Shown here: positions 3,473 through 38,305 of the stretch, in pieces | Position numbering within the stretch: position 1 is the stretch's first letter | How the letters are laid out: every line of letters begins with the position of its first letter | Source: Pseudomonadota bacterium | GTDB taxonomy: Bacteria; Myxococcota_A; UBA796; GCA-2862545 | Direction of reading: 5' to 3' | Length of the DNA: 39,289 nucleotides | Assembly (NCBI GenBank): GCA_023954855.1 | Contig: JAGSGY010000053.1 | Location: 1-39,289, forward strand | Program-made: the position numbers and the translations under genes | The notes under the pieces: generated by a model | Seen by the model: only the letters and a program-made list of their open reading frames with translations | The model's database searches: none | What the model was told of the DNA's origin: nothing

Positions 3473-4165
3473 ATGAGCACGCGGCCTTCCATTCTCGTTG
3501 TCGAAGACGAGCCCCACATCCGCCGGGGGCTCTGCGACCTGCTGGCCTACAATGGCTATCAGCCCACCGGTGCCGCAGATGGTCTTTCCGGGCGAGAGCA
3601 GATGCTCTCCCAACCCTGGGACCTCGTGATCCTCGACGTGATGCTGCCGGGCGTCGACGGCGTCACCCTGTGCCGCACCCTCCGCGAAGCACGACCCGGG
3701 CAAGCCATCCTGATGCTGACCGCCAAGGGATCCGAGGCCGACATCCTCGCGGGCTTCGAAGCCGGATGCGATGACTACGTGGCCAAGCCCTTCTCGATGC
3801 CGCAGCTCGTGGCGCGAGTGGGTGCTCTAGTGCGGCGGGCCTCGACGACTCCAACGCGCTGGACACTCGGCCCCGTCGAGGTAGACGCCCACCAGCTCGT
3901 CGCGAGCAACGGCCAGACCGAGGTGGAGCTCTCTCCGCGCGACGTGGCCGTCATCGGCCATCTGCTCCAACACAAGGACCGGGTGGTTCCACGAACCGAG
4001 CTGCTGACCGAGGTCTGGGGCTACCAGCGCGTCGACCACGTCGAGACACGCGCGGTGGACATGCACATGGTGAAGTTACGCCGTAAGCTTGCTGCCGTGG
4101 CGGGCGAACTCGCCCTGATCGAGACGGTGAGAGGCGCGGGCTACCGGCTGAGCCGGGCCTTGTGA
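3473..4165 (+). CDS. OmpR/PhoB-family response regulator
   Basis: A DNA-binding response regulator of 230 residues, the usual family length. The receiver domain (about 5-118) has the acidic pair E11/D12, phosphoacceptor D55 (LVILDVMLPG), T83 and K105 (YVAKPF). The C-terminal winged-helix domain (about 130-228) ends with the typical ETVRGAGYRL. GAGGA precedes the ATG closely. The stop overlaps the GTG start of the histidine kinase by four bases (GTGA), so the two are translationally coupled and form a cognate pair. The target genes and stimulus are unknown. No phosphate or metal transport genes flank it. Confidence 0.95.
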   Translation: MSTRPSILVVEDEPHIRRGLCDLLAYNGYQPTGAADGLSGREQMLSQPWDLVILDVMLPGVDGVTLCRTLREARPGQAILMLTAKGSEADILAGFEAGCDDYVAKPFSMPQLVARVGALVRRASTTPTRWTLGPVEVDAHQLVASNGQTEVELSPRDVAVIGHLLQHKDRVVPRTELLTEVWGYQRVDHVETRAVDMHMVKLRRKLAAVAGELALIETVRGAGYRLSRAL

Positions 4166-6159
4166 AGACGCCGCCGTCCAGAGGCCGGGTGGCGGCCGTG
4201 CTCGTGCTCATCGCTGTGGCACTCACTGCCGCGCTTGCGATGCTCGCGAACCGGGCACTCGCCGTGGCCGACCGAGAAGCGGCTCTACAGCGCGAGGTCA
4301 TCGCAGAGCGCCTCTTCGACGACATGGAGCAGACGCTCACTGCCTTCATCGCCCAAGAAGATGCTCGCCCCTTCGACCACTGGCGTCCAACCGTGCTCGC
4401 CCAGGGAAGCGCCACTCTCGTGCCCTCTCCGCTTGCGGAAGGTCCGCCGGAGTCGTTCGTCGTCGCCTACTTTCAGATTGACCCTGATGCGACCGTCAGC
4501 AACCCGCACGAGCTCCCGGCCGAGCACCCCGCCACACGCGAGGACCTCGGTCAGCGCTTCGAGGGCTGGGGAGGAGACGCCGTCGAGACCCGAACCATCG
4601 ACGTCGTGGTTCCGCCCTCCCCCAAGAACAACGTGCAGATGGCGGCTTCGAAGCCAGCTCCGAAGCCCGCACCGGCGGCCCCAAGCAAGTCGACCCACAA
4701 CGTGGGCGCTACCGAGCAACGCGCCCTCCTCGATGTGAGCCAGACCATCAGTCGAGGCGCATCCAAGCGGTCGCAGCGCCGCGAGATGCAGCAGACGGTC
4801 ATGCAGACGCAGGTCAGCAACTTCGTCGACCCTGGCCAGATTGAAGACTTCCAGGCCGAGCTCGAACCCCAGGCCGCTGCGCCGCTCGACGAGCCCGTTC
4901 AGAACATCCAGCAAGCCCTCCAGCAGGCGGCCACACCGGTCGAGGAACCCGTTCAGGAAATCGAGCAAGCCATCCAACAGGCGGCCACACCGGTCGAGGA
5001 ACCCGTTCAGGACATCGAGCAAGCCATCCAACAGGCCGCACCGGCGCCAGCCATCCCGGCCCCCCGAGTCATTCAAGTGCAGGTCCCGGACGCGCGATCA
5101 AGCGCCGTGGATGTGGCCGTCTCGCCGCTAAGCTCGACGGTGGACGCACAGGGCCGCTGGCTCACTCGCACAGTGCGAGTCGACGGACGTACTTGGGTTC
5201 AGGGCATGCTCATCGACGACGACGCCCTGCGCGCCGACCTCGCCAAGAGCCTGCGGCCCCTCGAAGAGGTGGCGACCTTGAGTTGGTCGGATGGCGAGTT
5301 CGAGCACCGCTTCGCCGCGCCCTTCGAGGGGGTGACTGCCTCGCTCACGGTGCACCCTCTCGACGCCTCAGACTCCCCCTGGAACTACATCCTCGGCCTG
5401 ACCGCGCTCGTTGCGGCCATCGCAGCCGTCGGTCTCGGCGCCGCCTGGCGGACCACCACCGCCAGCCTCGCGCTTGCCGAGGAACGAAGCGACTTTGTCT
5501 CGGCGGTGACCCATGAGCTGCGCTCACCGCTCACGAGCATCCGCATGTACGCCGAGATGCTCGAGTCCGGCATGGCCGCCGATCCGGGGACGGCCGCCGA
5601 GTACCACACGGTCATCCGCGAAGAAGCCGAGCGCTTGAGCCGGCTGGTCGAAGACGTCCTGACCATGGCCGGGCTCGAGCGCGGAGGTCTGGTGCTCGCC
5701 GCACCCGAGCCGCTCGGCGACGTCATCACCAGGGTCGCGGCGACGGTTCAGCCGGTCGTCGGCGCCCAGAACCAGACGATTCACATCGAGGTAAGCGAGC
5801 CCGCTCGCAGCATTCCCGTGCCCGCCGATGCGCTGACCCAGGTCCTCAGCAACCTCATCGACAACGCCAGCAAGTTCAGTGTGGATGCGACCGACCGCCG
5901 CATCCACATCGAGGCCACCGCCACATCCACCGCCCTGAAACTGGTCATTCGCGACCACGGTCCTGGCGTGACCGAGGCGGTGCGCACCCAGATGTTCACC
6001 CCGTTTTTCCGCGGAGAACGAGAGCTCACCCGCAAGACGCGTGGCACTGGCATTGGCCTGTCGCTCGTGGCCGGCATCGTCGGTGAGCTCGGCGGAACCG
6101 TCTTGGCCCGGAATCACGCCGACGGCGGACTCGAAGTCGTCGTGCAGCTTCCACGATGA
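4162..6159 (+). CDS. Membrane sensor histidine kinase with repeat-containing periplasmic region
   Basis: Partner kinase of the preceding regulator, 665 residues. TM1 is at about 10-30 and TM2 at about 409-430. Between them lies an unusually long extracytoplasmic segment rich in Pro, Ala, Gln and Glu, including an 18-residue repeat (residues about 244-292). The cytoplasmic part has a HisKA dimerisation helix with phospho-accepting H451 (VTHELRSPLTS) and an HATPase domain with N-box NLIDNASKFS (from N564), DHGPGV and GTGIGLSLV. It starts with GTG overlapping the regulator stop. The periplasmic region matches no sensor family I recognise, so the ligand is unknown. Start and kinase assignment are secure. 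Confidence 0.93.
   Translation: MKTPPSRGRVAAVLVLIAVALTAALAMLANRALAVADREAALQREVIAERLFDDMEQTLTAFIAQEDARPFDHWRPTVLAQGSATLVPSPLAEGPPESFVVAYFQIDPDATVSNPHELPAEHPATREDLGQRFEGWGGDAVETRTIDVVVPPSPKNNVQMAASKPAPKPAPAAPSKSTHNVGATEQRALLDVSQTISRGASKRSQRREMQQTVMQTQVSNFVDPGQIEDFQAELEPQAAAPLDEPVQNIQQALQQAATPVEEPVQEIEQAIQQAATPVEEPVQDIEQAIQQAAPAPAIPAPRVIQVQVPDARSSAVDVAVSPLSSTVDAQGRWLTRTVRVDGRTWVQGMLIDDDALRADLAKSLRPLEEVATLSWSDGEFEHRFAAPFEGVTASLTVHPLDASDSPWNYILGLTALVAAIAAVGLGAAWRTTTASLALAEERSDFVSAVTHELRSPLTSIRMYAEMLESGMAADPGTAAEYHTVIREEAERLSRLVEDVLTMAGLERGGLVLAAPEPLGDVITRVAATVQPVVGAQNQTIHIEVSEPARSIPVPADALTQVLSNLIDNASKFSVDATDRRIHIEATATSTALKLVIRDHGPGVTEAVRTQMFTPFFRGERELTRKTRGTGIGLSLVAGIVGELGGTVLARNHADGGLEVVVQLPR
4888..5039 (+). 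repeat. 54-bp in-frame tandem repeat in the kinase sensor region
   Basis: About 2.8 copies of a 54-bp unit encode an 18-residue repeat, approximately QQAATPVEEPVQ(E/D)IEQAI. The last two copies are nearly identical at DNA level (4927-4980 and 4981-5034 differ at one base), whereas the first is diverged. The encoded Gln/Glu-rich heptad-like segments could form a short coiled or extended stalk. Confidence 0.9.
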
Positions 6160-19323: not shown

Positions 19324-22059
19324 ATGAACGGACAAGACCTTGCTGCCCTAAGAGCCGCCGTCAGTCCTTCCCTGAAAGACGGGAACTTCGACGAGCTCTG
19401 GGCTCAGTTCACAGCCGAGTTCCCCTCCACGGAACCGGACGACTTCCTCACCTGGCTGCATTCGCAGAACATGCTGAGCACGGGTGTGCTGCGCAAGCTG
19501 CTGACGACGGGCACGCTAGCGCCCACCAGCGCAACACCGCCGCCGCCGCCTCCACCAGGCGTTCCGCGCAGTCTCAACCCCACGCTGGTCACCAGTCCCA
19601 GCGAGCTGAAGGGCGAGGATCCGCTCGACGAGAACACCGACGTCCGCGCAGCCCGTCGCTCCCTGCGGCGCAGCGGTGACGCACCACGCGCCGAGGCTGC
19701 CTCCTCTTCGGAAGGCGAAGAGGCCCCCAAGGCCGAGCGACGCGACGCCCGGCGGCGCACCGGAGAGCAACGCGATCCCCGACGCCGCACCGGCGAACAG
19801 CGCGACCCCCGACGCCGCACTGGCGAACAGCGCAATCCACGACGTCGCACCGGCGAGCAGCCGAATCCACGCCGCCGCACCGGCGAGCAGCCGAACCCAC
19901 GTCGTCGCACCGGCGAACAGCCGAAGCCTGGCGGACGCCGCGGTCTGCGCAAGACCGGCCGCCTGGACGAGGGGCGCTCCAACCAGCCCGGAAAGATGAC
20001 CACCGGGCGCTACGACTTCGTCGGACACGTCGGCGAAGGCGCGATGGGCCAGGTCCTGCTTGCAGAAGACCTCGACCTGAACCGAAAGGTCGCGTTCAAG
20101 CAGATGAGCGAGGAGACGGCGAAGCAGAAAGCTCTCGCCGCCAAGTTCTACTCAGAAGCACAGATCACCGCCCAGCTTGACCACCCGAACATCGTTCCGA
20201 TCTACAGCCTCGAGCGCACCGAAGAGGGCTCGCTCGCCTACTCGATGAAGCTGATTCGCGGCAAGACCATCGAGGACGTCATCCAAGAGACGGTCGAGCT
20301 CGCAGTCAGCAAGAAGCCGATTCCCGAGGACCACTCCCTCGAGCACCATCTCGAGCAGTTCCTCAAGGTGCTCGACGCCATGTCCTACTCGCACGATCGC
20401 GGCATCGTGCACCGGGACCTCAAGCCCGAAAACATCATGATCGGCGCCTATGGCGAGGTCTACGTCATGGACTGGGGCATCGCCCGGCGTATCCATGGCT
20501 CGGCACCCGAAGACCCGGTCACCCTCCTCGACGAGCCCGAGGAAGATGACGAGACGATCATCGGTACGCCCCAGTACATGTCGCCGGAGCAGGCGCACGG
20601 CAAGGTCAACGAGCTCGACGGACAGTCCGACCAGTACAGCCTCGGCCTGATCCTCTATGAGCTGGTCTCGCTGCGCCAAGCCGTCACCGGCAAGACGCCG
20701 ATCAAGATCGTCATGCGCCAGCAGGACGGCGAGAAGGACCCGCTCAACCACGTGACGGGCGAGGCCATTGACCCGGCTCTGCGTGCCATCGTCATGAAGT
20801 GCACCGCGCGCGCCAAAGCCGATCGCTACGTCGACCTGCGCGAGCTCGCCGACGACATTCGCCGCTGGCTCCGCTCTGAAGAGACGCGTGCCTACCCCGA
20901 CAACATGCCGCGACGCATCTCGCGTTGGGCCGCCCGCAACCGCACCGCAGTGATGTTCAGCGTCATGGGCGTACTGCTGTCGATGGCCGTGCTCACCACC
21001 AGCACCCTGGCCTACTCCTACGTCTCGCTCCAGCAAGCGGCCGAACGCGAAGAGAGCCTCTCGCACATCATCACCACCGCCGGTCGCCAAGCCGGCCTGA
21101 TCGATGGCGCATTCGCTCGTTACGAAGGCATTCTCACCTCAGTGGCAGCCACGGCGATCCAGCGTATGGACCAGCCGATTCCCGACGACGCGGACCCGGT
21201 GTTCTACGGGAACTCCTTCGACCTGGCGAAACTCCCAGACGCCGGCGCACCGAACGGCCGTTGGCCCGAAGACCTGGCCTCCGCCGAGGCCTACAACGAC
21301 CTCGACCTCTCGCTCGCCGAGCCCGCGTACATCATTCCCCCGGGCGTCGAGCGCTACCGGGTCGATGGTGCCCTCTCGCGCCTCGCGCCAATGAAGCGTG
21401 ACTTCAGTCGGGCGCTGCTTCGCTCCAACAGCGAAGATGCAGTCACCTACACGCCGAAGCGCGCCGAGCGTCTGATCACCTCCACAGGTGTGCCGATTGC
21501 GTGGTCGTACATCGGCCTCGAGAGCGGACTCTTCGCCGGCTACCCGGGCCATGGCGGCTTCAACCCGAAGTTCGACGCTCGTCGAGAGCCCTGGTACGCC
21601 CTCGCCAAGGGTGCCCGCGGCCCGACTTGGGGAGCCGCTCACATCGACAACTCCGGTCTAGGCCTGCTGCTGCCCTGCTCAATGGCGCTCTACGACGCAG
21701 ACGACCGTCTGCTCGGCGTCGCGGCCGTCGAGGTCACCTTTGACTACATCATCAACGAGCTGATGGAGTCCGAGGACTACCCGGCGGGCAAGTACCAGAG
21801 CTACCTTCTCTCCGAAGATGGCAAGGTCATTATCGACTCCGCGAAGAAGGGTAAGGAATACAAGTCCTCGAGCAGCCGTACCCGCGAGCTTCGCACCCCC
21901 GAGTTCGAGCATCGCCAGGTCGTCGAGGCCGTCAAGAAGCACCTCGACGGACACATCGAGGTCGAGAAGGACGGAGTACAGTACCTGATCACGTACAACC
22001 GAATGAACTCGCTCGGTTGGTACTACGTGGTCATGGGCAAGACCGAAGACATGCTCTGA
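19324..22059 (+). CDS. Membrane Ser/Thr protein kinase with extracytoplasmic Cache-like sensor
   Basis: A protein of 911 residues. N-terminal segment (1-90), low-complexity linker with six perfect-length decapeptide repeats (residues 143-202), then a Hanks-type kinase domain (230-525). Its loop is GEGAMGQV, the ATP lysine is K259 (AFKQM), and the catalytic loop HRDLKPEN is H363-N370. DWG replaces the DFG motif, and TPQYMSPEQAHG is the activation segment end. One transmembrane helix (about 543-565) leads to a C-terminal extracytoplasmic domain (about 570-905). This resembles double-Cache ligand sensors (RREPWYALAKGARGPTWGAAHID, LLLPCSMALYDADDRLLGVAAVEVTFDYI). The topology predicts direct coupling of an external small ligand to kinase activity. 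The start follows GAGG. The DUF1444 gene follows by seven bases. Confidence 0.9.
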   Translation: MNGQDLAALRAAVSPSLKDGNFDELWAQFTAEFPSTEPDDFLTWLHSQNMLSTGVLRKLLTTGTLAPTSATPPPPPPPGVPRSLNPTLVTSPSELKGEDPLDENTDVRAARRSLRRSGDAPRAEAASSSEGEEAPKAERRDARRRTGEQRDPRRRTGEQRDPRRRTGEQRNPRRRTGEQPNPRRRTGEQPNPRRRTGEQPKPGGRRGLRKTGRLDEGRSNQPGKMTTGRYDFVGHVGEGAMGQVLLAEDLDLNRKVAFKQMSEETAKQKALAAKFYSEAQITAQLDHPNIVPIYSLERTEEGSLAYSMKLIRGKTIEDVIQETVELAVSKKPIPEDHSLEHHLEQFLKVLDAMSYSHDRGIVHRDLKPENIMIGAYGEVYVMDWGIARRIHGSAPEDPVTLLDEPEEDDETIIGTPQYMSPEQAHGKVNELDGQSDQYSLGLILYELVSLRQAVTGKTPIKIVMRQQDGEKDPLNHVTGEAIDPALRAIVMKCTARAKADRYVDLRELADDIRRWLRSEETRAYPDNMPRRISRWAARNRTAVMFSVMGVLLSMAVLTTSTLAYSYVSLQQAAEREESLSHIITTAGRQAGLIDGAFARYEGILTSVAATAIQRMDQPIPDDADPVFYGNSFDLAKLPDAGAPNGRWPEDLASAEAYNDLDLSLAEPAYIIPPGVERYRVDGALSRLAPMKRDFSRALLRSNSEDAVTYTPKRAERLITSTGVPIAWSYIGLESGLFAGYPGHGGFNPKFDARREPWYALAKGARGPTWGAAHIDNSGLGLLLPCSMALYDADDRLLGVAAVEVTFDYIINELMESEDYPAGKYQSYLLSEDGKVIIDSAKKGKEYKSSSSRTRELRTPEFEHRQVVEAVKKHLDGHIEVEKDGVQYLITYNRMNSLGWYYVVMGKTEDML
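19750..19929 (+). repeat. Six 30-bp tandem repeats encoding a decapeptide
   Basis: Exactly six 30-bp units in frame encode RRRTGEQRDP twice, RRRTGEQRNP once, RRRTGEQPNP twice and RRRTGEQPKP once. They lie just before the kinase domain. The Thr-Gly-Glu and strong positive charge (three Arg per unit) suggest a flexible basic linker that may be phosphorylated or bind anionic partners. This is inferred from composition. Confidence 0.95.
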
Positions 22060-22066
22060 GCAGTCG

Positions 22067-22993
22067 ATGAGCGGTCCCCCAGAGGAGTGGCTCGAGGCAC
22101 GCGGCGACCTGCTGCCTGTCCTCCGCGGTGTGTCTCGTCCCCCCGGAAGCCTGACGAGGCTTGCCACTGAGCCCCGTACGGCACCCATCCGCCGACCGGC
22201 CGCTCCCTTCCTGAGCGAGCTCGTGGTCTGGGATGGGCCTCACACCCGCCACTACATCACGCCGAAGCACCTCGAGATGTGGCAGGTCGACGGACATCGG
22301 GTCTTCCACCAGGCCCGGGCGAACATGCCCGCGACCCAGGGCCTCACCCGCAAGGGCCCCTTCTTTCAGCTCGATGCCGGCGATGGCTACGACGCCTCGA
22401 GACTGATCCTGCCAGGCTGGCTCGAGGCCTTCGCCGAGATGGTGGACGGGGTGCCCGTCGCGGCGGCACCCGATGCGCGCACACTACTGGTCTGCGGATC
22501 CGAAGACACCGAGGCCATCGAGGAGCTGCTGCGAATCGGGTACGCGGGCTACCGCCGAGCCGGAGATCCCGTGTCTCCGGGGCTGTACACCTCAGTCGAC
22601 GGTGAGCTCGCTCCCTACCTGGTCTCCGAGGGGCCGCTGGCTCCCTTGCTGCGGCGAAACCAGCTCGTGCTCGCGGGACAGCAGTATCGCCTGCAGAAGC
22701 ACGAAATCGACCACGACGCCCACCTGGCAGACTTCTCGGTCTTCGTCGGTCCACAGTTCGCGGTGTCGCTTGCCCAACTGCGCCAGGGCGTGACCACGCT
22801 ACTGCCGGTCGTCGACTTCATCGTGCTCGAGACTGCAGACGGCAGCACTCGAACCGTCGAGTGGGCTGTGCTCCCCGAACATGTGGAAACACGGGTTCAC
22901 GGCGATCTCGTGCCGCCGCGCCTCGAGGTGAGCAGCTTCCCGGACGACCTGGACGCGCTCCCAGAGGCGCCCATTCGCATCACGCTGAAGTAG
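22067..22993 (+). CDS. DUF1444 (YtpQ-like) family protein
   Basis: A protein of 308 residues that resembles the uncharacterised DUF1444/UPF0354 family (Bacillus YtpQ). Typical elements are LLPVLRGVS near the start, ELVVWDGPHTRHYITPKHLEMWQVD, GDGYDASRLILPGWLEAFAE and SLAQLRQGVTTLLPVVDFIVL. No signal peptide or membrane helix is seen. The gene starts seven bases after the stop of the Cache-kinase and is surely cotranscribed, so it may act with or be a target of that kinase. Function is unknown. I am fairly but not wholly sure of the family. Confidence 0.72.
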   Translation: MSGPPEEWLEARGDLLPVLRGVSRPPGSLTRLATEPRTAPIRRPAAPFLSELVVWDGPHTRHYITPKHLEMWQVDGHRVFHQARANMPATQGLTRKGPFFQLDAGDGYDASRLILPGWLEAFAEMVDGVPVAAAPDARTLLVCGSEDTEAIEELLRIGYAGYRRAGDPVSPGLYTSVDGELAPYLVSEGPLAPLLRRNQLVLAGQQYRLQKHEIDHDAHLADFSVFVGPQFAVSLAQLRQGVTTLLPVVDFIVLETADGSTRTVEWAVLPEHVETRVHGDLVPPRLEVSSFPDDLDALPEAPIRITLK

Positions 22994-23409: not shown

Positions 23410-25254
23410 TCAGGGCCGACGCACCTCGAACGAGAGTCGTTTCCCGCCTTCCTTCAACTGCCAGAAGCCCGTCATTGCGCCACCTCCGAGGGTTCCGCGG
23501 AAAGCCATGCCCTTTCCGGACTCCTTGAGGATCACCGCACCGGCCTCGGTGACGGTACCGCTGAGATCCACAGTGCGAATGGTCGGTCCTTGCACCAATT
23601 CAGCCGTCGCTGTGATGGAGGGTCCCGCTCCCGAGATGCGAAGGGTGAGCGGGCGCCCCGAAACGACCCCCACCCAGCTCCCACCGATCTTGGGGTATCT
23701 GGGCTCCGCGGGTTGCAGCTCGACGACGGGCTCTGGCTCGACGACGGGTTCTGCGACCACAGCCACTTCGACGGGCTCGCTCACCTGGGCCGCCTCGACC
23801 ACGGCGTCCCCTTCTGCGAGCGTTTCAAGCAGCGGTTCCGCCGCAACTCTAGGCACCTCGATGGGAGTCGGCGCCGGCGATGGCCGGGTTCGGGGCGCAC
23901 TCCGGGGCCTTGGAGAGGGGTCGATCACGGCCGGCTGCACGGGCTCGGGCGCCGCGGGAATAGGTTCCGGGGCCGCTGGGGGTGGCCGGTCCGCTCCGAC
24001 GAAGCTCTGCACCTCAGGGGTCGCCTCGACAGGCTCCGCGTTGTCCACTCCCCCCGACATCAACACGACGCCAACGGCCGACACCGCCGCCAGCAAAGCC
24101 ACCAGTGCAATGACGAGTGCCCAGGGGGACGAGCGCCGGGCGACGAACACCGCCCCACCACTCGACGCATCCGAGAGCGCATCCGACACGGAGTCTGACA
24201 GCGGTGGCGTAGGCCGAGGGGGAAGCTCTCGCTCGAGGGAGAGCGGCAGCGGCGTGTAGCGAGCCGCCCCCGACGAAGCCTCACGCAACACGCCCGTGGC
24301 GGGTACCGACGCGCGCGGGGCGAGAGTCTCCATGCGTGGCAGGAAGGCCGCCGCGAACTCCTCGAGTGAGGCATCGGGAACCGACCGAGCGAGATAGCCC
24401 AGCTGATCGGCCAGCTCTGCCGCCTTGGGACGTTGGTCAGGCTCGGTGGCCAGTGCCGACTGGAGCAGCGGAGCGAGCAACGACAGCGTAGGCCCCGGCC
24501 CGACCGCTGCCTCGACCTCGGCCAGACAGGAGCGCACCCAGCCGTCATGTGCCTCATCGTCCGCCGGCGAGGTGCCAAACACACGACCGGCCAAGAGCTC
24601 GGCCACCAGCTTGGCCGCCGCATACACGTCGCCCTCCGGCCCACCCGGATCGCCGTTCAGCCGCTCGGGCGACATGTACCGCCGTGTTCCCACGACGAGC
24701 TCGCCAGACTCGGCCTCTCGCGTGGGAAGGTCTACCCATGCGAGGCCAAAGTCGAGCACCTTCACATCACCGTCCGGAGTGATGCGCACATTCGACGGCT
24801 TGATGTCGCGGTGCACGACGCCGAGCTGCCGACCTCCCCCATCCATGGCGACAAAGGCCGCGTGAAGGGCCGCACTGATCTCGGCACCAATGGCGAGGGC
24901 CGCACCGACGGCCATCCGCTCGCCGGCCTTCTCGAGGGCCTGATGGATCTGCTCCAGGTCCCCGCCGGGGACGAAGTCCATGACCACTGCCCATCGCTCT
25001 CCCAGGCGGACGAGGTCGAGGACGGTCACCACGCTGCGGTGGTGGATATGTCCGAGAATGCGCGCCTCGTCGCGGATACGCCGGTTGGTTGCTTCGTCTC
25101 GGCGGTGCGCGTGCAGTACTTTCACCGCGACCCGGCGGGTAAACCCTGCCTCTCCGGATCGCGACTCCGCGAGGTAGACCTCCCCGTACGCGCCGGCACC
25201 GATACGCTCGATCAGCTCGAAGGCGCGGCCCGATGAGGCTTGCTCGGCGGTCAC
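23410..25254 (-). CDS. Membrane Ser/Thr protein kinase with Pro-rich extracytoplasmic tail
   Basis: A protein of 614 residues. The Hanks-type kinase domain (about 10-310) has GAGAYGEV, the ATP lysine K45 (VAVKVL), HRDIKPSN with catalytic D150, DFG at 168-170 and RRYMSPERLNG. A Ser-rich juxtamembrane linker (about 320-375) leads to one transmembrane helix (about 378-399). An extracytoplasmic Pro/Glu/Val-rich stalk (about 400-525) follows, then a compact beta-rich domain (about 526-614, SWVGVVSGRPLTLRI, IRTVDLSGTVTEAGAVIL, MTGFWQL) that I do not recognise. It starts with GTG overlapping the upstream barrel gene stop (GTGA), so translation is coupled. Confidence 0.9.
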   Translation of the reverse strand: MTAEQASSGRAFELIERIGAGAYGEVYLAESRSGEAGFTRRVAVKVLHAHRRDEATNRRIRDEARILGHIHHRSVVTVLDLVRLGERWAVVMDFVPGGDLEQIHQALEKAGERMAVGAALAIGAEISAALHAAFVAMDGGGRQLGVVHRDIKPSNVRITPDGDVKVLDFGLAWVDLPTREAESGELVVGTRRYMSPERLNGDPGGPEGDVYAAAKLVAELLAGRVFGTSPADDEAHDGWVRSCLAEVEAAVGPGPTLSLLAPLLQSALATEPDQRPKAAELADQLGYLARSVPDASLEEFAAAFLPRMETLAPRASVPATGVLREASSGAARYTPLPLSLERELPPRPTPPLSDSVSDALSDASSGGAVFVARRSSPWALVIALVALLAAVSAVGVVLMSGGVDNAEPVEATPEVQSFVGADRPPPAAPEPIPAAPEPVQPAVIDPSPRPRSAPRTRPSPAPTPIEVPRVAAEPLLETLAEGDAVVEAAQVSEPVEVAVVAEPVVEPEPVVELQPAEPRYPKIGGSWVGVVSGRPLTLRISGAGPSITATAELVQGPTIRTVDLSGTVTEAGAVILKESGKGMAFRGTLGGGAMTGFWQLKEGGKRLSFEVRRP

Positions 25255-27802: not shown

Positions 27803-27912
27803 GCTTTCTCCTTGAAGATCTAGAGTTCCCAGTCCACGCCAAACCATTACCGAAAATCTCGAAAAGGACCGCATTCCTCTTCTGCCAGCATCGTCGACGG
27901 CTACAGTTGGGC

Positions 27913-28746
27913 ATGCGCACTCTCTGGATTCTTGGACTTGTGGCCTGCAGCCAGCCGATGGACTGCGAAACGGGCGAGGTGCTCGAAGCGGGCACATGCA
28001 CTCCCTACAGCCCCGAGGCTCCGGTGGAAGCGACGGTGTGGACCCCCGAGGTCGGGACCACCTGGCAGTGGCAGATCACCGGCACGGTCGACACCAGCCT
28101 GGACGTCGCGATGTACGACGTCGACCTCTTTGACCTGACCGACGACGTCGCTGACGCGCTGTCAGACCGCACCCTCATTTGCTACTTCTCGGCAGGTTCC
28201 TGGGAGGAGTGGAGGCCGGATGCCGACGACTTCCCCGTCAAGGCTGTAGGACGCCAGCTCGATGGCTGGCCCGACGAGCGCTGGCTGGACATCCGAGACC
28301 CAGGCGTTCGCGAAGTCCTCGCGGCACGGCTGGACATGGCCGTCGAGAAAGAGTGCGACGGTGTGGAGCCCGACAACATCACCGCCTTCAACAACAACAC
28401 GGGCTTTGGCATCAACGCCACCGAGCAGCTGGACTTCAACCGCTGGCTGGCTGACGAAGCCCACGCACGCGACCTCTCCATCGGCCTCAAGAACGACCTC
28501 GACCAGCTCGAGGATCTTCAGCCGTGGTTCGACTGGGCGCTGAACGAAGAGTGCCTGTCCTATGACGAGTGTGAGGTCTACGACACCTGGTTGGCCTCGG
28601 GCATGGCCGTGTTTCACACCGAGTACGTCGACGACTGGGCCGATGCGGATGCGCTCGCTTCCACCGCTTGTTCGGCCGTGCCCACCGGCTTCTCGACGCT
28701 GGTGAAGACCTGGGACCTCGGCGCAGAGTTCCTCGCCTGCCCGTAG
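27913..28746 (+). CDS. GH114-like secreted glycosidase (endo-alpha-1,4-polygalactosaminidase-type) lipoprotein
   Basis: A protein of 277 residues. The signal peptide MRTLWILGLVAC has lipidation at C12. The remainder matches the GH114 barrel: TTWQWQITGTVDTSLDVAMYD at the start, TLICYFSAGSWEEWRPD, LDGWPDERWLDIRDPGVREVL, ARLDMAVEKECDGVEPDNI and LSIGLKNDLDQLEDL. The conserved acids are D in MYDVDLFD and E/D in CDGVEPDN. Known members cleave alpha-1,4-linked galactosamine polymers of fungal or biofilm matrix, so an exopolysaccharide target is inferred. It starts at ATG 27913 rather than the TTG six bases earlier. It is 12 bp before the next lipoprotein, likely cotranscribed. Confidence 0.85.
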   Translation: MRTLWILGLVACSQPMDCETGEVLEAGTCTPYSPEAPVEATVWTPEVGTTWQWQITGTVDTSLDVAMYDVDLFDLTDDVADALSDRTLICYFSAGSWEEWRPDADDFPVKAVGRQLDGWPDERWLDIRDPGVREVLAARLDMAVEKECDGVEPDNITAFNNNTGFGINATEQLDFNRWLADEAHARDLSIGLKNDLDQLEDLQPWFDWALNEECLSYDECEVYDTWLASGMAVFHTEYVDDWADADALASTACSAVPTGFSTLVKTWDLGAEFLACP

Positions 28747-35326: not shown

Positions 35327-38305
35327 ATGAAGCGCATTCTCGTACCGTCCGTCCTCTCTGCCCTCGCCCTCTCGGGCTGTGGCGAACCCAGCTGCCTCAG
35401 CGGCGCCGATGACTGCGTCGTCGCCACGGCCTGCGAAGACCTGGCGTTCACCTGCGATGGCGGAACCACCCAGGTCTACGTCATCGACGACGTGAGCCAG
35501 ATCCCTGGCGGCATCTCCGCTTCGGGTGCGATCGGCGACTACGTGCTCGAGAACGACCAGGTGAAGGTCGTGATCGAAGCCCTCGATCACCCGCACTACC
35601 TCGGCATCTCGGGCGGCAGCATCGTGGACATGGTGGTGCCCGGCCAAGACCACGACAGCCTGCGCCACTACTGGCAGGCCACGGGTCTGCTCCCCTTCGA
35701 CTACGTCGAGTACACCGAGCTCGAAGTCCTCGAAGACGGCGATGTGAAGTCGATTCAGCTGCACGGAACCCTGCAGGGACGCCCCGATGCGCCGGTCCAC
35801 ACCCGCTACGAGCTGCATCCCTGCGAGCCCGGCGTTCGCATTCGCACTGAGATCGTCAACCTCGAGGCCGAGCCCTCCTCGTGGGCCCTGCTCGACGGCA
35901 TGTACTTCGGCGGCCGCGAGAACCTCGGGTTCGCCCCCTTCCCCGGCGGCGGCTTCAAGTTCCGCGAGTTCGGTCTCGGCGACCTCACCGAGGTCATGAC
36001 GCCCGTGCCCTACGTGGTCTCGGGTATGCACACCGAGCCTGCCGCGACCTACGCGACCATCGCCTGCAACGACGAGACGGTCACGACCTTCCTCACCGAA
36101 GAGATCGTGCCCGTCGGCGTGTCGCCCACCCTGGTCATGCCGCGCGACTACATCGTGTTCGAGCGGTTCCTGGCCGTCGGGGACGGAAGCGCGGTCTCGG
36201 TCGGCGCTGACCTGGCCCTCGAGGTGCGCAGCCAGCTCTTCGACGAGCCCTACACCGAGCTCTCGGGCTCGGTCTCGGTGCCGCAGGACGACAACAGCGC
36301 CGTCGGTGAGGGCATCCGAGCCCTGGTCACGATCTCCGAGGGCACCCTCGCGATGGACGCCGAAGAGCGCACGCCCTGGACCGTCGCCATTCCCGATGAC
36401 GACGGCGCCTTCACGGTACGCGTCCCCGCAGACCGCTCCTATGTGGCCGAGGTCGAGGCCATGGGCCGTGTCGTCGCAGAAGCCGAGGTCGACGTCGGAA
36501 GCTCTGCCGCTGATCTCGGCGACATCGAGCTACCCGCCATCGCCGATGTCAGCCTCTCGGGCACGCTCAACGGCGCCGATGACGGCGACGAGATTTACCT
36601 CTTGGTCCATCCCTCCGACGACCTGACCCTCGAGGAGTCCGAGGGCATCATGCTCGGCCACTTCGAGTCTTGCGCACCGATGCTCGGCCATCCCTACGGC
36701 GGCAGCCCCGCCTGCAACCGCGTGCTCGTCCGCGAGGGCGATGTCGAGACCGTCTCGCTGGTTCCCGGCACCTACGACTTCTTCGCGGTCGCCGGCCCCT
36801 TCTCGACGCTGGCCCGGGTTGGCGGTGTCGTCGTCGAGCCGGGCACCGCACAGAGCGTGCACCTGGACCTCGAGACCATCGACGGTCTGCAGCCCGCGGG
36901 CACCCTCACCGGTGACTTCCACATCCACGCGCGAAGCTCGTTCGACTCGTCGCTTCCCGACGTCGACCGCATGCGCGCCGTGCTCGCGAGCAAGCTCGAG
37001 GTCATGGCCTCCACCGAGCACGACCTGGTCTACGACTTCAGCCAGGTCGCCGCAGACCTCGGCGCCAGCGATGACATCGCGATCATGACCGGCACCGAGT
37101 CCACGGGCCACGTGCTCTGGTACTGGAACCCCACCGTGACCTACCCGCAGGTGACCGGTCACTGGATCATCTGGCCCCTCACCTACGACCCCGGCGCGCC
37201 CTGGCGCGGCGCTCCCTGGGATGAGCTGGTCGAGCCCGGTGAGCTATTCACCCGCGCCGCCGACCTCTCGTGGCCCGCCGACAGCGGCGTCATTCAGCTC
37301 AACCACCCCGTCGGCGGCGTGCAGTTCGGCCGCGACTTTGGCTGGGCCTCCGCCGCGCTCATCGACGGCAACGAGGACCTGAACGACGACGACGCGACCA
37401 CCCAGGGATTGTTCTCGCGCACGCCCGAGGGCTCCGACTTCGCGAACGACGACTACCACGTGCAAGAGATCATGAACGGCACGAACAACGGCCAGTTCCT
37501 GCAGTACCGGGCGTTCTGGCACTACCTCTTGAACCAGGGCGTGCTGCGCGCTGGCACTGCCAACTCCGACAGCCACACCCTGACCGACAACGTCGTCGGC
37601 ACGCCGCGTACCCTCGTCACGACCGACACGACCGTGGCGACCTTCGACCCGGTCACCTTCAACGCTGCTGTGCGCGAAGGCCGCATGACCGGCACCAACG
37701 GTCCGGTGTTGCTCGTCTCGACCACCGACGATGCCGGCGACACCCGCGCCCCGTCGCTCGACATCTTCGAGCCCGGCGACAGCGCCGAGCTCTCGATCGA
37801 GGTGCGCGCCGCACCGTGGGTCGACGTGCAAGAGGTGCGCATCGTCGTGAACGGCGAGGTCGTCGAGACCCTCACCGACCTGGCCGCCCAGCCCGACCCG
37901 CTCTCGATTCCAGCCGCTGCGGCCGATGTCGTTCGCCTGCAGACCACCGTCTCGCTCGCGGGGCTGCTGCCCGACAGTGGCGATGCCTGGATCAGCGTCG
38001 AGGCGGGCACCCCCCTCATCGACAACGCCGACCTCGACTGTGACGGCTGGCCCGACACCGGCGACAACAACGAAGACGGCAGCATTGACTGGCGAGACGT
38101 CGAGGGCGTCGAAGAGGCGCCTGAGAGCGACTGCTTCGCCATTGGCGACGCCGGGCCGCTGAAGGACCCGCCGATTCCCGAGGACCGGTCCTCGGCTGAC
38201 TACTTCTTCCATGCGGTCACCCCGCACGGCTACCCGCTTGCCTTCACAAATCCACTGGTGCTCGACCTCGATGGCGACGGTGAGTTCACGGGGGTGACGC
38301 AATGA
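35327..38305 (+). CDS. Surface lipoprotein with CehA/McbA-type PHP metallohydrolase domain
   Basis: A protein of 992 residues. Lipobox ALSGC, lipidation at C18. The N-terminal half (about 45-510) is rich in beta strands and includes Ig-like or carbohydrate-binding-like segments (VSLSGTLNGADDGDEIYLLVHP). The PHP domain (about 528-810) has the metal ligands in order: H532 and H534 (GDFHIHARSS), H565-D566 (STEHD), E591 (TGTES), H660 (NHPVGG), D748 and H750 (ANSDSH). The full ligand set implies an active phosphoesterase or amidohydrolase-like enzyme. The C-terminus has an Asp-rich calcium-loop-like stretch (DLDCDGWPDTGDNNEDGSID). The stop overlaps the next gene's ATG (ATGA). The substrate is unknown. 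Confidence 0.82.
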   Translation: MKRILVPSVLSALALSGCGEPSCLSGADDCVVATACEDLAFTCDGGTTQVYVIDDVSQIPGGISASGAIGDYVLENDQVKVVIEALDHPHYLGISGGSIVDMVVPGQDHDSLRHYWQATGLLPFDYVEYTELEVLEDGDVKSIQLHGTLQGRPDAPVHTRYELHPCEPGVRIRTEIVNLEAEPSSWALLDGMYFGGRENLGFAPFPGGGFKFREFGLGDLTEVMTPVPYVVSGMHTEPAATYATIACNDETVTTFLTEEIVPVGVSPTLVMPRDYIVFERFLAVGDGSAVSVGADLALEVRSQLFDEPYTELSGSVSVPQDDNSAVGEGIRALVTISEGTLAMDAEERTPWTVAIPDDDGAFTVRVPADRSYVAEVEAMGRVVAEAEVDVGSSAADLGDIELPAIADVSLSGTLNGADDGDEIYLLVHPSDDLTLEESEGIMLGHFESCAPMLGHPYGGSPACNRVLVREGDVETVSLVPGTYDFFAVAGPFSTLARVGGVVVEPGTAQSVHLDLETIDGLQPAGTLTGDFHIHARSSFDSSLPDVDRMRAVLASKLEVMASTEHDLVYDFSQVAADLGASDDIAIMTGTESTGHVLWYWNPTVTYPQVTGHWIIWPLTYDPGAPWRGAPWDELVEPGELFTRAADLSWPADSGVIQLNHPVGGVQFGRDFGWASAALIDGNEDLNDDDATTQGLFSRTPEGSDFANDDYHVQEIMNGTNNGQFLQYRAFWHYLLNQGVLRAGTANSDSHTLTDNVVGTPRTLVTTDTTVATFDPVTFNAAVREGRMTGTNGPVLLVSTTDDAGDTRAPSLDIFEPGDSAELSIEVRAAPWVDVQEVRIVVNGEVVETLTDLAAQPDPLSIPAAAADVVRLQTTVSLAGLLPDSGDAWISVEAGTPLIDNADLDCDGWPDTGDNNEDGSIDWRDVEGVEEAPESDCFAIGDAGPLKDPPIPEDRSSADYFFHAVTPHGYPLAFTNPLVLDLDGDGEFTGVTQ

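Follow-up and report, generated by a model that had tools for sequence, protein, structure and literature searches.

We analysed a window of 39,289 nucleotides (contig JAGSGY010000053.1), in which a 911-aa reading frame, open throughout, occupies positions 19324-22059 of the forward strand. The features of this gene, together with the gene that follows it, are listed below.

19324-22059 (+): receptor Ser/Thr kinase with an N-terminal kinase, one transmembrane (TM) helix and a C-terminal dCache_1 sensor (Pfam, hydrophobicity)
19324-19518 (+): small helical N-terminal region, residues 1-65, DFLTWLHSQNMLSTGVLRKLL (by eye)
19734-19921 (+): tandem repeat, 30-bp unit, 6.3 copies, encoding six 10-aa RRRTGEQ units within the predicted cytoplasmic linker
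20011-20826 (+): Hanks-type kinase domain, residues 230-501 (Pfam Pkinase)
20470-20478 (+): DWG motif, residues 383-385, invariant in 58 of 58 sampled family members
20938-21018 (+): sole predicted TM helix, residues 539-565 (hydrophobicity), running into the first sensor helix in the model
21019-22056 (+): predicted extracytoplasmic sensor, residues 566-911; the protein stops just past the proximal Cache subdomain
21556-22032 (+): dCache_1 match, residues 745-903, profile positions 88-239 of 240 (Pfam)
21571-21732 (+): pocket motif F750, E755, W757, Y758, H773, D775, E803 (PctA PDB alignment)
22067-22993 (+): next gene, weak DUF1444 similarity, starting 7 nt past the kinase stop

The DUF1444-like gene is a possible operon partner of the kinase. 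In a relative of the same genus (L001), the two genes are paired just as tightly, with an 8-nt gap and GAGGAG ahead of the start. Upstream of the kinase lies a divergent YqeY gene, which is preceded by a CsgG/FlgO-like gene that matches TPR weakly; this gene order is common to the window and L001 and differs in the more distant L002. Downstream, at 23410-25254 on the reverse strand, a further Ser/Thr kinase of the DFG type (614 aa) was found, which occupies the same place in L001 and whose C-terminal region showed no clear Pfam match. Elsewhere in the window, a histidine kinase at 4162-6159, next to a response regulator at 3473-4165, has a sensor region that contains repeats (PVEEPVQEIEQAIQQAA) of about 20 aa. 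Read by eye, the product of 27907-28746 resembles a glycoside-hydrolase 114-type lipoprotein, and 35327-38305 encodes a predicted lipoprotein of 992 aa with a PHP-like region, for which no Pfam match was obtained at 0.05.

The kinase domain was identified by a PF00069 Pkinase match (E 3.1e-38, 132.1 bits against a cut-off of 31.7), and the catalytic residues checked are all intact: Lys259, Glu278, HRD at 363-365, Asn370, DWG at 383-385 and Glu422. Among the catalytic positions checked, Lys, Glu, HRD, Asn, DWG and the APE Glu are invariant in the 58 family members described below. These findings indicate that the protein is a Hanks-type Ser/Thr kinase that is predicted to be active. A pseudokinase, which the DWG motif might suggest, was rejected, since the DxG aspartate and the other catalytic residues are intact and invariant. 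The original prediction had regarded DWG in place of DFG as unusual, and this did not hold: besides the 58 family kinases, 9 of the 55 sampled kinases that were classified for this motif in the window's genome carry it (about 145 kinase matches in all). DWG is the mark of a common kinase lineage in this genome and no oddity. Just upstream of the kinase domain sits the RRRTGEQ array, of which two to three degenerate copies occur in the same-genus relative; because of the basic-Thr context, these repeats could be a phospho-acceptor array or a linker of variable copy number. The N-terminal helical mini-domain of about 60 aa, which had no Pfam match, recurs with low identity at the start of other family kinases.

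We then assessed the C-terminal region, which had been proposed to be Cache-like. The PF02743 dCache_1 match (E 1.6e-13, 51.2 bits against a cut-off of 45) leaves the first third of the profile uncovered, and the PDB search with the window sequence alone reached PctA at 1.2e-6. With a profile of 26 family members, each of which matched dCache_1 individually, PctA was found at 4.5e-22, followed by Cache domains of other chemoreceptors, diguanylate cyclases, histidine kinases and alpha-2/delta. The AlphaFold model was built from an alignment of three sequences and is weak (mean pLDDT 53); for this model, the 50 VIA rows were Cache or Cache-like sensors and calcium-channel alpha-2/delta chains (best match Z 13.4 over 210 residues, rmsd 5.2), and the Foldseek rows were likewise dCache domains. 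The fold expected of dCache_1 is a pair of PAS-like modules preceded by a long N-terminal helix. A continuous helix from the TM segment into the sensor (pLDDT about 80-90) and the membrane-proximal subdomain were well predicted, and the distal subdomain falls in the low-confidence part. Known dCache_1 sensors bind their ligands in the distal subdomain. The profile evidence indicates that the C-terminal region is a genuine dCache_1 domain, and with Pkinase and dCache_1 both above their Pfam cut-offs, the proposed fusion of a Ser/Thr kinase to a Cache-like sensor was borne out. Orthologues with 72% and 42% sensor identity have the same domain architecture, and their presence in independent genomes ruled out an assembly artefact; a search of plasmids gave no match.

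The protein has one hydrophobic segment, at about residues 539-565, with a charge of +4 in the 16 residues on its N-terminal side and -2 on its C-terminal side. Predicted from flank charge and hydrophobicity alone, a cytoplasmic kinase and an outside sensor are favoured, in agreement with the external position first assigned to the sensor, which lies C-terminal to a single TM helix with a positive kinase-side flank. PknB-type kinases have this same topology, with the kinase inside, the sensor outside and one helix between them. In the 58 family members, the TM helix directly follows the kinase, and essentially all of the proteins end directly after the sensor. About a quarter of them show a second hydrophobic stretch on a simple scale, which coincides with a core strand of the Cache fold (L072, 812-831, is an example) and not with a C-terminal helix. 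Canonical dCache receptors, in contrast, carry the sensor between two TM helices and the output at the C-terminus.

The fusion had also been called unusual, which is true across bacteria and untrue in this lineage. A 2016 survey by Upadhyay et al. counted 25 Ser/Thr kinases among 15,569 dCache_1 proteins (Table 1, PMC4822843). We collected 136 dCache_1 matches, the best listed ones of the window's genome and its relatives, and sorted them by regular expressions for kinase motifs, by which a few may be misassigned. Proteins with an N-terminal kinase, a TM helix and a C-terminal dCache domain made up 58 of these matches, and all 58 had the DWG motif. One further dCache kinase among the 136 (L008, contig C98, 1009-3117, in the window's own genome) is built the other way round, with a C-terminal DFG kinase and a weak N-terminal dCache_1 match (20 bits, below the cut-off). 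The other 77 include histidine kinases, chemoreceptors and GGDEF proteins.

With a family profile built on the TM-sensor part and a threshold of E 1e-15 or better, 61 of the phylum's 379 genomes gave a match, among them 17 of the other 20 genomes in the window's own taxonomic family. We checked 20 of the matched regions, 18 of them from outside the window's class, and found an N-terminal DWG kinase in 18, a DFG kinase in one and a contig-end fragment in one. A first sample of 94 genomes had suggested a family restricted to the class, but 17 more fusions of an N-terminal DWG kinase in the phylum's other families refuted this. In the window's own genome, two contig-end fragments (C100:66112-66738 and C94:4-612) cover positions 159-363 and 1-204 of the family profile, complementing each other, and are probably one more dCache kinase split by the assembly.

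The kinase domains of the 58 sensor kinases were placed in a tree with ten other DWG and eight DFG kinases (quick search, LG+G4). Because the 58 domains fall on one side of a branch (SH-aLRT 99), the kinase-dCache fusion most likely has a single origin, from within the DWG kinases. In the whole-protein tree, the window protein pairs with the protein of the same genus (100), and this pair is nested in supported sets, first of 9 rows and then of 13, that come exclusively from the window's own taxonomic family. The fusion itself is already on record; what is new is its scale and history within this phylum.

To read the binding site, we mapped the PctA pocket through the PDB alignment, in which chain numbers plus 8 give the published numbering. 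The amino-acid motif comprised Tyr121, Arg126, Trp128, Tyr129, Tyr144, Asp146 and Asp173 (PctA numbers), as defined from papers later than the original and from the PctA alignment; D146 is presumably a position of the PctA-type motif. Published docking (PMC11237719) assigns the carboxylate contacts to the first Tyr, the Arg and the Trp, and the amino-group contacts to the second Tyr and the Asp. The window pocket reads FEWYHDE against YRWYYDD in PctA (F750 for Y121, E755 for R126, W757 for W128, Y758 for Y129, H773 for Y144, D775 for D146 and E803 for D173), so that the dCache_1AA motif fails. The same-genus relative has the identical changes, with an acid for the Arg and His for the second Tyr. 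The full seven-position motif was present in 20 of the 58 family members, with Phe allowed for Tyr121; a paralogue encoded in the window's own genome (L009) has this motif intact. In the three closest orthologues of the window protein, W757, Y758 and D775 are kept along with the flanking PGHGG and GLGL-LPC stretches.

Two other known motifs were compared. The dCache_1AM amine motif requires Asp at the position of PctD D235 (PctA D173) and fails at E803 in the window; D235A costs PctD 162-fold in affinity, and binding was not detected in amine sensors with a single motif mismatch (PMC10104139). The dCache_1AM criteria also include W155 and the pairing of R103 with D133, both located in an insert that lies over the pocket. 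In the purine motif of McpH (Y121, R129, W140, F167, D169), only W140 could be equated with a window residue, W757, through PctA. Because E755, H773 and E803 replace the Arg, the second Tyr and the Asp, the ligand of the window protein is probably something other than a free alpha-amino acid. Our guess, held loosely, would be a small molecule that is cationic or amine-like, since the site is now lined by two acids.

We propose that the window encodes a single-pass receptor Ser/Thr kinase in which a cytoplasmic kinase is joined through an inner-membrane helix to a periplasmic dCache domain that binds a small molecule in its distal part, and we give this reading a probability of about 0.7. The domain order, the one TM helix, the intact catalytic residues, the dCache homology and the likely single origin can be read from the sequence. 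Beyond these, a small molecule would bind the membrane-distal module of the periplasmic double-Cache domain and would alter how the long TM-alpha1 helix packs in the dimer. Two kinases would thereby be brought together or reoriented, leading to trans-autophosphorylation of this RD kinase. Once active, the kinase could modify targets in the cytoplasm, among which might be its own RRRTGEQ repeats and the protein encoded by the next gene. TM2, the usual output path of dCache receptors, is absent and the sensor comes last, so the signal could leave only via the N-terminal helix that enters the sensor.

Other readings of the sensor must be weighed against this one. PASTA kinases respond to cell-wall material, and the dCache domain might similarly bind a periplasmic protein, a cell-wall fragment or a binding-protein complex in place of a free small molecule. 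The pocket of the window protein and its closest relatives is degraded, as if out of use, and the window and L001 both have the CsgG/FlgO-like gene, with its weak TPR match, upstream, all of which would fit such a partner. We nevertheless consider this reading unlikely, though less so than the two that follow, since the three closest orthologues preserve W757, Y758, D775 and both flanking stretches, and the whole amino-acid motif survives in 20 of the 58 members. The window sensor might instead still bind amino acids, with Glu803 serving for Asp and another basic residue for Arg126. The change from Asp to Glu is conservative, and L081, a member of the same orthologue group, has the full motif. 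However, the Arg that binds the carboxylate has become the acidic E755 in both members of the genus, Tyr144 is gone too, and no binding was detected for amine-sensor domains with one mismatch, which makes retained amino-acid binding improbable.

Some Cache domains act structurally or via partner proteins, and the sensor could accordingly be vestigial or structural, a ligand-free dimerisation domain that holds the kinase dimer. The strong variability of the pocket inside the orthologue group speaks for this. Against this, the domain has been kept over deep divergence as one phylum-wide family and its pocket-proximal positions are invariant, and we consider a purely structural role the least probable of these readings. 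Direct control of the window kinase by a small ligand is, we infer, the best reading. For the family as a whole, we suggest more tentatively, and at somewhat less than even odds, that its members are one-component receptor kinases of single origin in which the dCache domain signals only via the N-terminal helix, that those with an intact motif directly sense extracellular amino acids, and that the pocket in the orthologue group of the window protein has been re-specialised to another class of ligand.

To our knowledge, the signal is known for few bacterial Ser/Thr kinases. This family joins a kinase to a type of sensor for which pocket residues allow ligand prediction, and about one-third of the sampled members thus carry a ready amino-acid prediction. 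It also offers a natural test of dCache signalling without TM2. The value of the finding rests in the family, which spans the phylum, probably arose once, is marked by DWG, has an inverted topology and allows its ligands to be predicted in part.

Several known systems resemble the window protein in part. The dCache_1 Ser/Thr kinases of Upadhyay et al. have the same pair of domains, dCache_1 and Pkinase; that survey gives the count alone (PMC4822843), and our study adds orientation, DWG, origin, spread and pocket motifs. The amine and purine dCache sensors as listed in two papers (PMC10104139, PMC11245519) include no Ser/Thr kinases; they comprise chemoreceptors, histidine kinases, Ser/Thr phosphatases and c-di-GMP enzymes. 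PASTA kinases (PknB/Stk1, NF033483) likewise have the kinase inside, one TM helix and an external C-terminal sensor, but they carry PASTA repeats where the window protein has dCache and DFG where it has DWG. The window kinase domain scored 235.5 bits against their model, below its curated cut-off of 450 bits, and Pfam gave no match to PASTA repeats in the window protein. Chlamydial PknD-type kinases (NF009651) have a related kinase domain (207 bits, far under the 839-bit cut-off), and their C-terminal region is unmatched in the window protein. PctA and the other dCache_1AA chemoreceptors have a homologous sensor, whose seven motif positions recur in the 20 intact-motif family members; in PctA, a chemoreceptor with two TM helices, the sensor precedes the output, whereas the window protein has one TM helix, the sensor last and an altered pocket. 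In the GlnH-GlnX-PknG system of Actinobacteria (named in PMC11032199), amino-acid availability outside the cell likewise governs a Ser/Thr kinase; there, the sensor, the membrane protein and the kinase are separate, whereas the family members with the amino-acid motif would join all three in one protein.
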